Origin: Hahella ganghwensis DSM 17046
GTDB taxonomy: Bacteria; Pseudomonadota; Gammaproteobacteria; Pseudomonadales; Oleiphilaceae
Direction of reading: 5' to 3'
DNA: 51,557 bases
NCBI RefSeq assembly: GCF_000376785.1
Contig: NZ_AQXX01000097.1
Span: 1-51,557, forward strand
The notes below the pieces were generated by a model. It was not told the origin of the DNA, searched no databases, and worked only from the letters and a program-made list of their open reading frames with translations. Below are positions 24,955 to 41,324 of this stretch, in pieces. Each line of letters opens with the position of its first letter. Position 1 is the first letter of the stretch. A program made the position numbers and the translations under genes.

Positions 24955-25236
24955 TCAGTGACGGGTGTCGTTCCCGCCAGGCGTCCAGACACCAGATGCG
25001 GGCTGATTACCTGCTTTCTCTGCACAAGGAGTGGGTTTGTCGCGGGCGATATACCCTACCCGCTGCTCTTCCGGTACATTATTGGCCGCTTCATAGGCAA
25101 TAACAGCATCCATGCAAATCTGTTTTTGCTCTGTCGTCAGTGAGCGTCCATCCGGCCAGCGCCCCAGTTCCAGGGAACGCTTCAGCGACTCATAAACTTC
25201 AGGTGTAAGATTCTTCGCGACTTCAACAAAGGACAT
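24955..25236 (-). CDS. DUF1315 (YeaC-like) small protein
   Basis: 93 residues. The DUF1315 pattern is clear: MSFVEVAKNLTPEVYESLKR, LGRWPDGRSLTTEQKQICMDAVIAYE and RVGYI. The start ATG at 25236 has AGGAG six bases before it; seven further codons upstream are open but lack a site. No known function; widespread in gammaproteobacteria as a soluble protein. The 3' end carries a Pro/Gly-rich tail. It is transcribed away from the Fur-box RNA described next. Confidence 0.88.
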   Translation of the reverse strand: MSFVEVAKNLTPEVYESLKRSLELGRWPDGRSLTTEQKQICMDAVIAYEAANNVPEEQRVGYIARDKPTPCAEKAGNQPASGVWTPGGNDTRH

Positions 25237-25432: not shown

Positions 25433-25464
25433 TTGACTTACAATTGCAAATCATTATCATTTGC
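25433..25464 (+). promoter_or_regulatory. Sigma70-type promoter overlapped by a Fur box
   Basis: TTGACT (25433-25438), a 16-base spacer and TATCAT (25455-25460) form a promoter. The palindrome GCAAATCATTATCATTTGC (25446-25464) matches the Fur consensus of NAT(A/T)AT repeats around a central T and covers spacer and -10. Fur with iron would shut this promoter. The only thing downstream on the plus strand is a short structured RNA. Confidence 0.7.
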
Positions 25465-25466
25465 AT

Positions 25467-25597
25467 TGTGTGTTTGATCCCACACAAACTCTCATCAGAG
25501 TATTCACAGCATATTTAGAGGGAGAGACGAAAGCTGCGTTGTTAGGATCACCGCCATCACAACGGTCGTTCTTGCAGCTTTCCCCCCTCGTTTTTTT
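25467..25597 (+). ncRNA. Candidate iron-regulated small RNA (RyhB/PrrF-like in regulation)
   Basis: About 130 nt, bounded by the Fur-box promoter and a terminator. Stem 1: TTGTGTG/CACACAA, beginning at the predicted +1 (25466-25487). Stem 2: ACTCT/AGAGT with loop CATC (25488-25501). Then an A/T-rich single-stranded stretch (ATTCACAGCATATTTA), a possible Hfq site. Stem 3: GAGGG plus GAAAGCTGC pairing with GCAGCTTTC plus CCCTC (25518-25589), with a short inner stem CGTTGT/ACAACG, closed by T7 (25591-25597). No convincing protein is encoded. Low iron would induce it. It does not contain the E. coli RyhB core that I remember, so similarity is in logic rather than sequence. A discontinuous match to the sodB start region is described under findings. 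Confidence 0.6.
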
Positions 25598-25670: not shown

Positions 25671-26531
25671 TCAACGCTTTTTAAATATCAGCATCAGACC
25701 CGCTGCCACTACCCCACAAACAAACCCCATAAAATGCGCCATATTGGCCAAATGAAGACCGAACAGATCAAACACGCCAAAGATTCCGGCAAACATCCAT
25801 AGAACACTTAGCACAACTAAACTCTGGTGGACCCATATTCCCTTTTTGGGCGCGAGTATCATTCCTGCCGCATGGACCCCGATCATGGCATATACCACAC
25901 CGGAAAAGCCGGCAAACCCCGGCCCGCTGGCAAAAAACTGACTGACATTGGAAATCAATGCGGTGACAAAGACCAGAGTCAGTAAACCAAACACCCCCAT
26001 ATAGCGTTCCAGGCTACGCCCAAAAACCCACACCCCCAGGGAGTTAAACAGCCAGTGCATCACGCCCCAATGTAACCAGGCAGGAGCGATAAGACGCCAG
26101 TAGTCCCCTTCCTGAAACAGAAAACGGATCCCCTCCATCGGGGAGGCCATTAGAGGAAAAGGAAAGGCATACCTGTCCAGGAAGAGAAAATAGCGATGCG
26201 AGTCAAATTCGCCAAACCCTGTCCAGACGGCTGTAATGAGTAAACTGATCAGCAGACAGACGATAGTCGGATAACCGGCAAGCCTTGCCAATAGTGACGG
26301 TGTCGCCACCTGACGACCCTGAAACCAATCCTGCACTTGCCCCTGCAGTTGCGTGTCTTGCAGATACCTTTTTGCCGCCTCCAGTACCATAGGCCGCAGG
26401 CTGGCATCATTTACCCAGATAATTTGTTTGCCGGATTCTTCCGAGACCTTTATGGGAATTCGTTGTGATTGCAAATAACGATAGAGGGGCTCGATATTCA
26501 CATCGACCCCCAGTTCGAGGACTTTTTCCAT
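25671..26531 (-). CDS. Rhomboid-family intramembrane serine protease (GlpG-like)
   Basis: 286 residues from the ATG at 26531; the frame runs on upstream, but that part is a shadow of the phosphoesterase gene. Residues 1-80 are a cytosolic domain like that of GlpG. Six membrane segments follow. Family landmarks: HWGVMHWLFN (oxyanion-hole His and Asn, 154-163), catalytic Ser210 in GFSG, catalytic His266 in NMAHFMGFVCG. Rhomboids cleave membrane proteins inside the bilayer; substrate unknown. It starts 14 bases after the phosphoesterase stop, so it is in an operon with it and nadK. Confidence 0.92.
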   Translation of the reverse strand: MEKVLELGVDVNIEPLYRYLQSQRIPIKVSEESGKQIIWVNDASLRPMVLEAAKRYLQDTQLQGQVQDWFQGRQVATPSLLARLAGYPTIVCLLISLLITAVWTGFGEFDSHRYFLFLDRYAFPFPLMASPMEGIRFLFQEGDYWRLIAPAWLHWGVMHWLFNSLGVWVFGRSLERYMGVFGLLTLVFVTALISNVSQFFASGPGFAGFSGVVYAMIGVHAAGMILAPKKGIWVHQSLVVLSVLWMFAGIFGVFDLFGLHLANMAHFMGFVCGVVAAGLMLIFKKR

Positions 26532-26545
26532 TCGTTTAACCGGCC

Positions 26546-27556
26546 TTAATAACTCAGCCCTGCCCCTGGCGGAATATCCCTTGAGACATCCACCCAGACA
26601 AAATTCTCTTTCTTCAAAGCCCGCTCGCCACTCATGCGATAGGCCACCAATTTGCCGTACTTCACTGCACTGTAATCCAGGCAGGCAATATTCTTTCTTA
26701 CCGGTCGGGGAGTTCCTGATAGCCAATAATGTCCGACAAATAAGGGCGCTTCATCCGGCCCATAAAACACCAGCCGGGATCGCTCAGTGTCAGAGAGAGG
26801 CCTGTGCTGAACCTCCTCGGGCAGACCATCCGGCTGAAACACCACGTCGTCGTAGGTTTGCGGATCTTCCGCCCAGAATTTGGTACGGAAGAACGTGCGG
26901 GTATATCCATCCCCGCTTTTCATTGCCAACCCTTTGGGAAGCGGCATGTCTGTGCCTCTGAGCAAACGATCCATGACATGGCCGGCAAAGCTTTCTCGGA
27001 CGGTGGAAGCGTGGAGAAAATCTTCATCAATGACCGCATCCGGATGAATCTCCAAAAAATCCTCGACCAGCTTATGATCCCAGCATGCGTGCACCACGCG
27101 AAATTCTGGTGTATCAATCAGAATCGGAAGGGTCATAAACCATTCCAGAAAGTGATTCCACTCATGCCCATAATTCGCAAACTGCTCCAGGGTTTCCCTG
27201 ATCACGCGCTCATGCCGGGGGGTATGCTCCCGCAGATAAGTTTTATTACTGCCCGGTCGCGCCAATGTACAATAGCCCAGCGCATTATATTCGTGGTTTC
27301 CCATGACAATCCGGGCAGCACCATGCTCAACCATATCCCGGACAACGTGCAGCGCCTCTCTGATTCGAGGACCACGATCAACAATATCGCCCACAAAAAC
27401 CGCCTGGCGGTCTTTATGCTGAAATACGCCGTTTATCTTCTGGTAATCCATTTTTTCAAGTAGTTTTACCAGCGTTTTGGCACAGCCGTGCACATCGCCG
27501 ATAAAGTCATAACCACTGAAACGGCCTGCTTCTGATCCGGTATCTACTTCACTCAT
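26546..27556 (-). CDS. Calcineurin-like metallophosphoesterase
   Basis: 336 residues. All metal motifs are present: GDVHG (20-24), GDIVDRGP (56-63), GNHE (86-89), then HACWDH and FVGHYW further on. This is the phosphoprotein-phosphatase/ApaH-like subgroup; candidate substrates are diadenosine polyphosphates or phosphoproteins, not decided by sequence. ApaH itself is shorter (~280). The ATG lies three bases after the nadK stop, with GGAGTG inside nadK as its ribosome site, so the two are coupled. Confidence 0.9.
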   Translation of the reverse strand: MSEVDTGSEAGRFSGYDFIGDVHGCAKTLVKLLEKMDYQKINGVFQHKDRQAVFVGDIVDRGPRIREALHVVRDMVEHGAARIVMGNHEYNALGYCTLARPGSNKTYLREHTPRHERVIRETLEQFANYGHEWNHFLEWFMTLPILIDTPEFRVVHACWDHKLVEDFLEIHPDAVIDEDFLHASTVRESFAGHVMDRLLRGTDMPLPKGLAMKSGDGYTRTFFRTKFWAEDPQTYDDVVFQPDGLPEEVQHRPLSDTERSRLVFYGPDEAPLFVGHYWLSGTPRPVRKNIACLDYSAVKYGKLVAYRMSGERALKKENFVWVDVSRDIPPGAGLSY

Positions 27557-36101: not shown

Positions 36102-36178
36102 TGGCGGAGCGGACGGGACTCGAACCCGCGACCCCCGGCGTGACAGGCCGGTATTCTAACCAACTGAACTACCGCTCC
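36102..36178 (-). tRNA. tRNA-Asp(GTC), copy in second tandem unit
   Basis: 77 nt with CCA. GGAGCGG pairs with CCGCTCC; anticodon loop CTGTCAC in a CCGGC/GCCGG stem gives GTC; T-arm GCGGGTTCGAGTCCCGT. Identical to the copy 225 bases further right. Confidence 0.96.
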
Positions 36179-36220
36179 AACAATTTCCATTTTTCTAATT
36201 ACATAAAGCACTTAGAGAAG

Positions 36221-36296
36221 TGGTGGGTGGTGCAGGGATCGAACCTGCGACCCTCGCCTTGTAAGGGCGATGCTCTCCCAGCTGAGCTAACCACCC
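36221..36296 (-). tRNA. tRNA-Val(TAC), copy in second tandem unit
   Basis: 76 nt with CCA. GGGTGGT pairs with ACCACCC; stem TCGCC/GGCGA with loop CTTACAA gives anticodon TAC. It is transcribed ahead of the neighbouring tRNA-Asp on the minus strand, with a 42-base spacer. Confidence 0.96.
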
Positions 36297-36326: not shown

Positions 36327-36403
36327 TGGCGGAGCGGACGGGACTCGAACCCGCGACCCCCGGCGTGACAGGCCGGTATTCTAACCAACTGAACTACCGC
36401 TCC
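36327..36403 (-). tRNA. tRNA-Asp(GTC), copy in first tandem unit
   Basis: Same sequence as the other tRNA-Asp in this array, including the encoded CCA and anticodon GTC. The array reads Val-Asp-Val-Asp in the direction of transcription. Confidence 0.96.
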
Positions 36404-36445
36404 AACAATTTCCATTTTTCTAATTACATAAAGCACTTAGAGAAG

Positions 36446-36521
36446 TGGTGGGTGGTGCAGGGATCGAACCTGCGACCCTCGCCTTGTAAGGGCGATGCTC
36501 TCCCAGCTGAGCTAACCACCC
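36446..36521 (-). tRNA. tRNA-Val(TAC), copy in first tandem unit
   Basis: Same sequence as the other tRNA-Val, anticodon TAC, CCA encoded. It is promoter-proximal in the array; the promoter should lie just to the right (36522-36600), where I could not fix a clear -35/-10 pair. Confidence 0.96.
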
Positions 36522-40930: not shown

Positions 40931-41324
40931 ACAGAATTAGCTATTTCCTGTCACGAATTCTGCACCAGTCAACGATACTTATTTTTTATTAATGCCATTG
41001 AAAACTTTGAATTTTTCGGGATAGTCCCCATATATCAAGGCATGCTATGATTTTGATCTTGAGGAAGAGATCAACCTCTCGGGGCTTGCGGGCACAGGAC
41101 ATCCCTGTCCCGACGCTGGCGTGGCCTTGGTTTCGCGTAACAATAGCTTTGCGTGTATACATCAACGCATCGGCAGAATACTTGGCCATCCAGCACCAGA
41201 CGTCATAATTATACCGGCACCCCAACAGGGAAAAGCCGGGGAAAAATGCCCACAATTACTCATTCATGATCGTTCGGAACATGAGACAGAGTTGGGATCA
41301 ACACATTGAAAAATGGAGAACACC
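40931..41324. other. Intergenic region before sodB
   Basis: 394 bases. It contains the hairpin TTGATCT/AGATCAA near 41053-41076 and a small stem ACAGG/CCTGT near 41095. The last ~40 bases are the sodB leader with its GGAG site. No Fur box and no gene recognised. Confidence 0.4.

Follow-up and report, generated by a model that had tools for sequence, protein, structure and literature searches.

The window considered here is a stretch of 51,557 nucleotides from Hahella ganghwensis DSM 17046 (contig NZ_AQXX01000097.1), and it carries, between two genes of the reverse strand, a promoter overlapped by a Fur-box-like palindrome and followed by a predicted small RNA. The features of this locus, together with a more distant gene of the same window, are the following:

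24955-25236, reverse strand: divergent neighbour, a DUF1315 gene (PF07023), which adjoins the RNA in 16 of 16 family loci
25433-25460, forward strand: promoter, with -35 TTGACT (25433-25438), a 16-nt spacer and -10 TATCAT (25455-25460)
25446-25464, no strand: Fur-box-like palindrome GCAAATCATTATCATTTGC (19-mer), which overlaps the -10 and is kept in relatives
25467-25597, forward strand: predicted small RNA of 131 nt (fold z -4.0, single copy, no ATG)
25467-25486, forward strand: 5' hairpin with the loop UUUGAUCC (25473-25480), predicted sodB seed
25488-25510, forward strand: PrrF-like core ACUCUCAUCAGAGUAUUCACAGC, predicted seed for sdhC, leuC and acnB
25518-25597, forward strand: intrinsic terminator, a long interrupted hairpin (25518-25589) and a T7 run (25591-25597), the sequence of which is swapped freely among species
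25671-26726, reverse strand, start codon provisional: convergent neighbour, a rhomboid protease gene (PF01694, NRho), present in 15 of 16 family loci
41293-41306, forward strand: predicted RNA-pairing site UGGGAUCAACACAU at -32 to -19 of the sodB leader, counted from the start codon
41325-41903, forward strand: sodB, Fe/Mn superoxide dismutase (PF00081, PF02777), predicted target

The first-pass annotation had read positions 25433-25597 as a structured small RNA controlled by a Fur box, and its description of the anatomy was borne out by computation: both promoter elements are present, the 19-bp palindrome lies across the -10, and the RNA, in which three stem-loops and a T7 tail had been noticed within about 130 bases, is predicted to fold into three stems, the first of which opens at base 25467, the predicted transcription start. 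The statements that no plausible protein is encoded and that no gene follows on the same strand hold as well, as the RNA has no ATG, on which ground a small protein was rejected, and the next gene is convergent. The fold reaches -39.7 kcal/mol, compared with a mean of -26.1 for shuffled sequences (none of 200 equals it), and places the first 14 nt of the core inside a small hairpin of five pairs (25488-25501). The RNA has a single match in its own genome. Promoter-like sites in the scanned 2 kb are at chance level (two, against 2.7 expected), and a simple terminator scan does not list the terminator of the RNA, the hairpin of which is long and interrupted.

Regarding the palindrome, eight of its nine arm positions are complementary, a value reached by 83 of the 451,179 19-mers in the window plus 400 kb of the same genome. 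It agrees with the Escherichia coli Fur consensus at only 14 of 19 positions; 22 sites in 451,557 bases, itself included, have this score, and two more, overlapping each other, reach 15. Among 38 homologous loci, the window and a near relative (G004) score 14/19 and the other 36 score 15-19, the conservation of the Fur site being partly by construction in this set, which was chosen with half a Fur site in the search pattern; TTGAC is found in 33 of the 38. What places the Fur site above chance is its conservation across homologous loci.

Twelve of 97 genomes matched the RNA, among them all seven Hahella genomes (that of the window included); three of the matches (L010-L012) were rejected as plain Fur-box matches and not relatives of the RNA. 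Nine homologues were compared in one orientation: their first 35 nt, which comprise the hairpin and CTCTCATCAG, hardly vary, and eight of them retain the following ten (UUCACAGC). The terminator hairpin is rebuilt between species, in contrast to the conserved Fur site and initial 45 nt. In one homologue (L009), a double change keeps a pair of the first hairpin, with GCGUG/CACGC in place of GUGUG/CACAC. A pattern consisting of the Fur half-site ATTATCATT, 12-42 bases and TCTCATCAG was found in 124 of 163 family genomes, belonging to 9 of 16 genera, and the reversed control pattern had one match. One additional pattern match, in G363, looks like chance, and G041 carries the RNA (L048) yet misses the exact pattern, which means that a genome without a match does not necessarily lack the RNA.

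The first-pass annotation had named covariation of the stems in relatives as a test, and the 5' hairpin of the Marinobacter-type RNAs passes it to a modest degree. Since MAFFT misaligned the 5' hairpins of mixed Hahella- and Marinobacter-type RNAs, the hairpin alignment was limited to the Marinobacter type (the g12 group; the genus name was deduced from kinship and the group labels are ours). In 34 distinct sequences, 95.6% of the cells of the 5' stem are paired, compared with at most 55% in slid controls, and double changes occur in three of its eight pairs, a number reached by none of 500 shuffles. The covariation score of the same stem is no better than that of shuffles, 177 of 500 being as high, and in the RNAalifold consensus the stem persists, two of 12 pairs having changed on both sides. 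The backing for conservation of the hairpin, as read from these alignments, is modest. The stretch is in all likelihood a real gene.

Fur-repressed iron-sparing small RNAs, such as RyhB, PrrF and NrrF, shut down iron-using proteins in iron starvation. The first-pass annotation took the RNA for the functional counterpart of this class, and the predicted targets support it. Raw duplex energies over whole leaders gave unrealistically long pairings (sodB ranked 10 of 344) and were replaced by an accessibility-corrected score, by which sdhC ranks 1, leuC 4, sdhA 8, acnB 13 and sodB 15 among 344 gene starts, acnA ranks 98, and the remaining ranks up to 14 belong to genes without assigned identity; these starts were picked by script in the window and in 20 stretches, nine of the latter from contigs selected because they hold sdh and aconitase genes. 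When the comparison is with 110 background starts, the rank is 1 for sdhC, 3 for leuC, 5 for acnB, 10 for sodB and 35 for acnA. The combined rank of these five genes is equalled by none of 39 dinucleotide-shuffled RNAs, a test in which sdhA was excluded from both the target set and the background and leuC owed its place in the set to an aconitase search rather than to any list of PrrF targets drawn up beforehand. Taken singly, sodB and acnB are equalled by 0 of 39, leuC and sdhC by 1 of 39 and acnA by 16 of 39. In the sodB leader, UGGGAUCAACACAU would pair with nucleotides 2-16 of the RNA through 14 pairs and one bulge (-19.9 kcal/mol, or -8.1 once the opening cost is included), while the predicted pairing lies at -23 to -8 in leuC, at -18 to -6 in acnB and across the start codon in sdhC. 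The RNA is thus predicted to pair where iron-enzyme mRNAs begin, as members of the iron-sparing class do, with acnA failing; most of the predicted targets are classical ones for such RNAs, and they favour an iron-sparing reading. The genome also has the two proteins that go with this class, with one Hfq gene and two FUR-family genes.

We consider it very probable that the locus encodes a small RNA akin in function to PrrF and RyhB, acting in trans, repressed by Fur and serving to spare iron in Hahella. Computation shows its anatomy, its conservation, its conserved neighbours and a complementarity to targets that exceeds that of shuffled RNAs; we infer its transcription, Fur binding, Hfq dependence and repressive activity. 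When iron is present, Fur bound to the palindrome over the -10 would keep the gene off; when iron is absent, the 131-nt RNA would be transcribed, starting near 25467 and ending at the T7 run, would probably bind Hfq, and would pair with the mRNA starts of dispensable iron enzymes, that of sodB being read by the loop of the 5' hairpin and those of leuC, acnB and sdhC by the core that follows. Such pairing would block translation and leave the mRNAs open to decay, sparing scarce iron for essential proteins.

The pairing with sodB can be followed among relatives. The sodB leader pairs with the loop of the 5' hairpin in all eight Hahella-type genomes, and the loop-complementary stretch is held by five distinct Hahella-type leaders, in each of which it is reached by 5-28 of 1000 shuffles; these leaders are not independent, because they are related. 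In a comparison of 37 genomes (the seven Hahella and 30 pattern matches that we selected for spread and unusual hairpins), the leader motif GGGAU[UC] and the RNA loop UUUGAUCC are both present in 8/8 Hahella-type genomes and both absent from the 29 others. Among 25 Marinobacter-type genomes, GGUCGU occurs in 20 RNAs, ACGACC in 15 sodB leaders, and GAGAGA, which could pair with UCUCUC in the core, in 22 leaders; ACGACC is found, by our count, in 106 of 126 matched sodB starts. When RNAs and leaders were swapped, with energies that ignore accessibility and genomes that are related, the Hahella-type RNA reached group means of -19.1 on its own sodB and -15.9 on the Marinobacter-type one, and the Marinobacter-type RNA -22.3 on its own and -14.5 on the Hahella-type. 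This preference does not extend to g7 (three genomes, -15.8 on own sodB) and g4 (one genome, -14.7), where foreign RNAs pair better, the single g4 leader giving -21.7 with the Hahella-type RNA and -23.8 with the Marinobacter-type RNA. In single genomes, a double change in RNA loop and sodB leader is seen in G049; the leader ACAACC forecast from the GGUUGU of the G361 RNA was not found, ACGACC standing there instead with wobble pairing remaining; G442 has a mismatch between GGUCGU in the RNA and ACAACC in the leader; and G408 has the leader ACAACC, the RNA not being seen there.

The pairing assigned to the core was compared with shuffles in Hahella genomes. For leuC, it is equalled by 0-4 of 200 shuffles in six of the seven Hahella genomes and by 34 of 200 in G003; for acnB, by 0/200 in the window's genome (G000) and G004, 3/200 in G005 and 13/200 in G001; for sdhC, by 4-11 of 200 in five Hahella genomes, and it is not significant against shuffled leaders in the window's genome (29/200) and G004 (26/200). 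On the sdhC, leuC and acnB of the window's species, the Marinobacter-type RNA reaches -17.8, -22.7 and -21.1, compared with -16.5, -17.9 and -20.8 for the species' own RNA, and because it pairs equally well or better, these sites do not discriminate between the two RNAs there; it is weaker on leuC and sdhC of G001, G002, G005 and G006. As a separate observation, the RNA of G003 (L008), a Hahella without UUCACAG, no longer has UAUUCACAG in its core, and the strongest pairing with sdhC there uses another part of the RNA, ACUCUC with GAGAGU (leader in L114).

These comparisons suggest that the RNA may consist of two seed modules that evolve separately. The shared core, the main part of which would have been kept from Pseudomonas to Hahella, would read Fe-S enzyme mRNAs, and the sodB-reading loop would have been replaced as a unit, being UUUGAUCC in Hahella and g14 and GGUCGU in most Marinobacter-type RNAs, so that the 5' loop and the sodB leader would have switched code jointly at one locus. 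We regard this two-module proposal, taken as a whole, as evenly balanced between being right and being wrong.

The relationship of the RNA to described families was addressed with Rfam. At the gathering threshold the window yields tRNAs only and no small RNA family; as a side observation, a block of tRNA-Asp and tRNA-Val stands twice in the window (36102-36296 and 36327-36521), with 195 of 195 bases identical. The earlier remark that the sequence does not resemble the RyhB core agrees with the RyhB models, which give nothing at the gathering threshold in the window and nothing at E 5 across a 301-base stretch surrounding the RNA, and a RyhB homologue is rejected on this account. Rfam returned, at lax limits around the RNA, a single match below the cut-off, PrrF (RF00444, 20.7 bits, E 0.22, curators' cut-off 90 bits), aligned on CUCAUCAG and UCAC. 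The RNA is thus not a strict Rfam PrrF. It does possess the PrrF core feature of CUCAUCAG followed by A/U and UCAC, the UCAC part of which is missing in L008 and in Marinobacter-type cores, and, by sequence, the PrrF feature of a Fur site over the promoter.

Across 293 genomes of the order, RF00444 matches 46 at E 0.001, in 24 of 119 genera. Seven of the 46 belong to the window's family; no match appears at this limit for the genome of the window, nor for at least five others among the family genomes listed. Twelve of the 46 lie over the cut-off and 34 below it, which makes the model look too narrow. Of 13 related loci, ten give a match at E 3, scoring 25.7-44.5 bits, and L002, L009 and L223 give none. 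The best counterpart, L043, from another genus of the same family, has 44.5 bits and E 1.6e-4 over all Rfam; three further Marinobacter-type loci score 33.5-37.9 bits, three g7 loci 26.0-35.4, and L007, L008 and L004 25.7-30.0. The model spans the promoter, so the Fur site contributes to every score, and the unrelated families tsr26, ncS54 and anti-hemB reach E 0.05-0.1 at the same loci; for these reasons only L043, and perhaps L074, stand alone. Tandem arrangements were also seen: G309 has five PrrF-like genes on contig 3 (L033:893-2221), 277-302 bases apart and with the core TCTCTCATCAAGCTAATCACGG, and G160 has three PrrF matches on contig 8 (352239-352926, L058), of which one core was read, TCTCTCATCAAAGCTAATCACGG, midway between those of the window and of PrrF. 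In Pseudomonas aeruginosa, according to a passage of PMC4211561, the PrrF genes are two in tandem.

The alternative that survives best is that the RNA does the same job from a separate origin, as a Fur-controlled RNA of the host's family that converged on the PrrF core. It is consistent with the scores of the Hahella-type RNAs, at most 30 bits and none significant alone, with the lack of any match for L002 and L009 at E 3, and with a 5' hairpin that differs from that of PrrF. Genomic context points the same way: among 58 loci compared (16 family loci with the RNA and 42 others, PrrF loci among the latter), tblastn queries with the proteins of the window (E 1e-3, mostly 1.5 kb per side) detect neither DUF1315 nor rhomboid at the 42 outside the family. 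A precedent exists in BrrF, an analogue without sequence kinship to RyhB according to PMC7377471. Against this stand L043, which occupies the corresponding position in a different genus of the family and has the RF00444 match at E 1.6e-4, and the intermediate cores TCTCTCATCAGGAACTTCACGG (g7), TCTCTCATCAAGCTAATCACGG (G309) and TCTCCTCATCAGGCTAATCACGG (matches over the cut-off). We find a separate origin possible but improbable, and distant homology to PrrF, traced through the positional counterparts, likely.

The conserved neighbourhood invites more local readings. DUF1315 adjoins the RNA at every family locus compared, the only exception for the rhomboid gene being L009, where the contig ends before it, and at L007 (g14) the Fur site ends about ten bases short of the apparent DUF1315 start codon. 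The Fur site could then serve mainly the divergent DUF1315 gene, the RNA being a by-product or a regulator of it; the -35 and -10 elements, however, are oriented toward the RNA, and the conserved 5' part of the RNA and its pairing to iron-enzyme mRNAs would be left unexplained, which makes this quite unlikely. The near overlap at L007 also raises, as a point of its own, that DUF1315, a family without assigned function, may be Fur-controlled too. A purely local action of the RNA on the rhomboid gene, as an overlapping antisense or by collision, would fit the convergent orientation at 15 of 16 loci, but the predicted RNA ends with its terminator at 25597, 73 bases before the rhomboid stop codon (25671), and conservation sits at its far 5' end; local antisense action was considered and rejected as highly improbable. 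That there is no gene, the palindrome and hairpins having arisen by chance, agrees with promoter-like matches at chance level and with a 14/19 consensus match that is not rare, but is scarcely credible given the conservation at fixed spacing in 124 of 163 genomes, the fold z of -4.0 and the target ranks equalled by no shuffled RNA.

Returning to the iron-sparing RNA as the preferred reading, the suggestion that it is probably undescribed agrees with searches of the open-licence literature, which gave no account of such an RNA in Hahella or Marinobacter: nothing was retrieved for Hahella with small RNA and Fur, or for PrrF with Hahella; Marinobacter with sRNA, Fur, iron or RyhB led to Caulobacter work only; and PrrF with Marinobacter led to a text in which, in the portion available, Marinobacter appears solely within a reference (PMC7857532). 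The RNA does have relatives, being a divergent and distant counterpart of the Pseudomonas PrrF RNAs that is apparently unrecorded so far. PrrF-type iron-sparing RNAs would reach well past Pseudomonas, into many genomes that the Rfam cut-off misses, and the Hahella RNA now has named likely targets and pairing sites. The comparative series moreover offers an sRNA and a sodB target that appear to have altered their pairing sequences jointly; the two-module proposal, if true, would provide a natural example in which the code of an sRNA and that of its target were exchanged jointly.

Several known RNAs share parts of this description. BrrF of Burkholderia, a low-iron RNA, carries a conserved pair of 5' hairpins and has the predicted targets sodB, sdhC, sdhA and acnA; it differs in being always beside hemP, and PMC7377471 reports no similar sequence beyond the Burkholderiales. 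RyhB of enterobacteria shares the regulatory logic and overlapping targets, but the window's RNA matches no RyhB family at the limits given above. ArrF of Azotobacter vinelandii, likened here by description, is termed a PrrF homologue and reported as a sodB regulator in passages of PMC2851614 and PMC4211561. In Pseudomonas fluorescens, a portion of PMC3377617 gives lower sodB in low iron, and its table rows for AcnB and LeuC hold mostly negative values in columns of uncertain meaning. The closest likeness is with PrrF1 and PrrF2 of Pseudomonas (RF00444), with which the RNA shares the Fur site at the promoter, the core CUCAUCAG followed by UCAC, an intrinsic terminator and predicted iron-enzyme targets; it differs from them in its score of 20.7 bits against a cut-off of 90, in its 5' hairpin, in its single copy and its neighbours, and in using, by prediction, the hairpin loop to read sodB.
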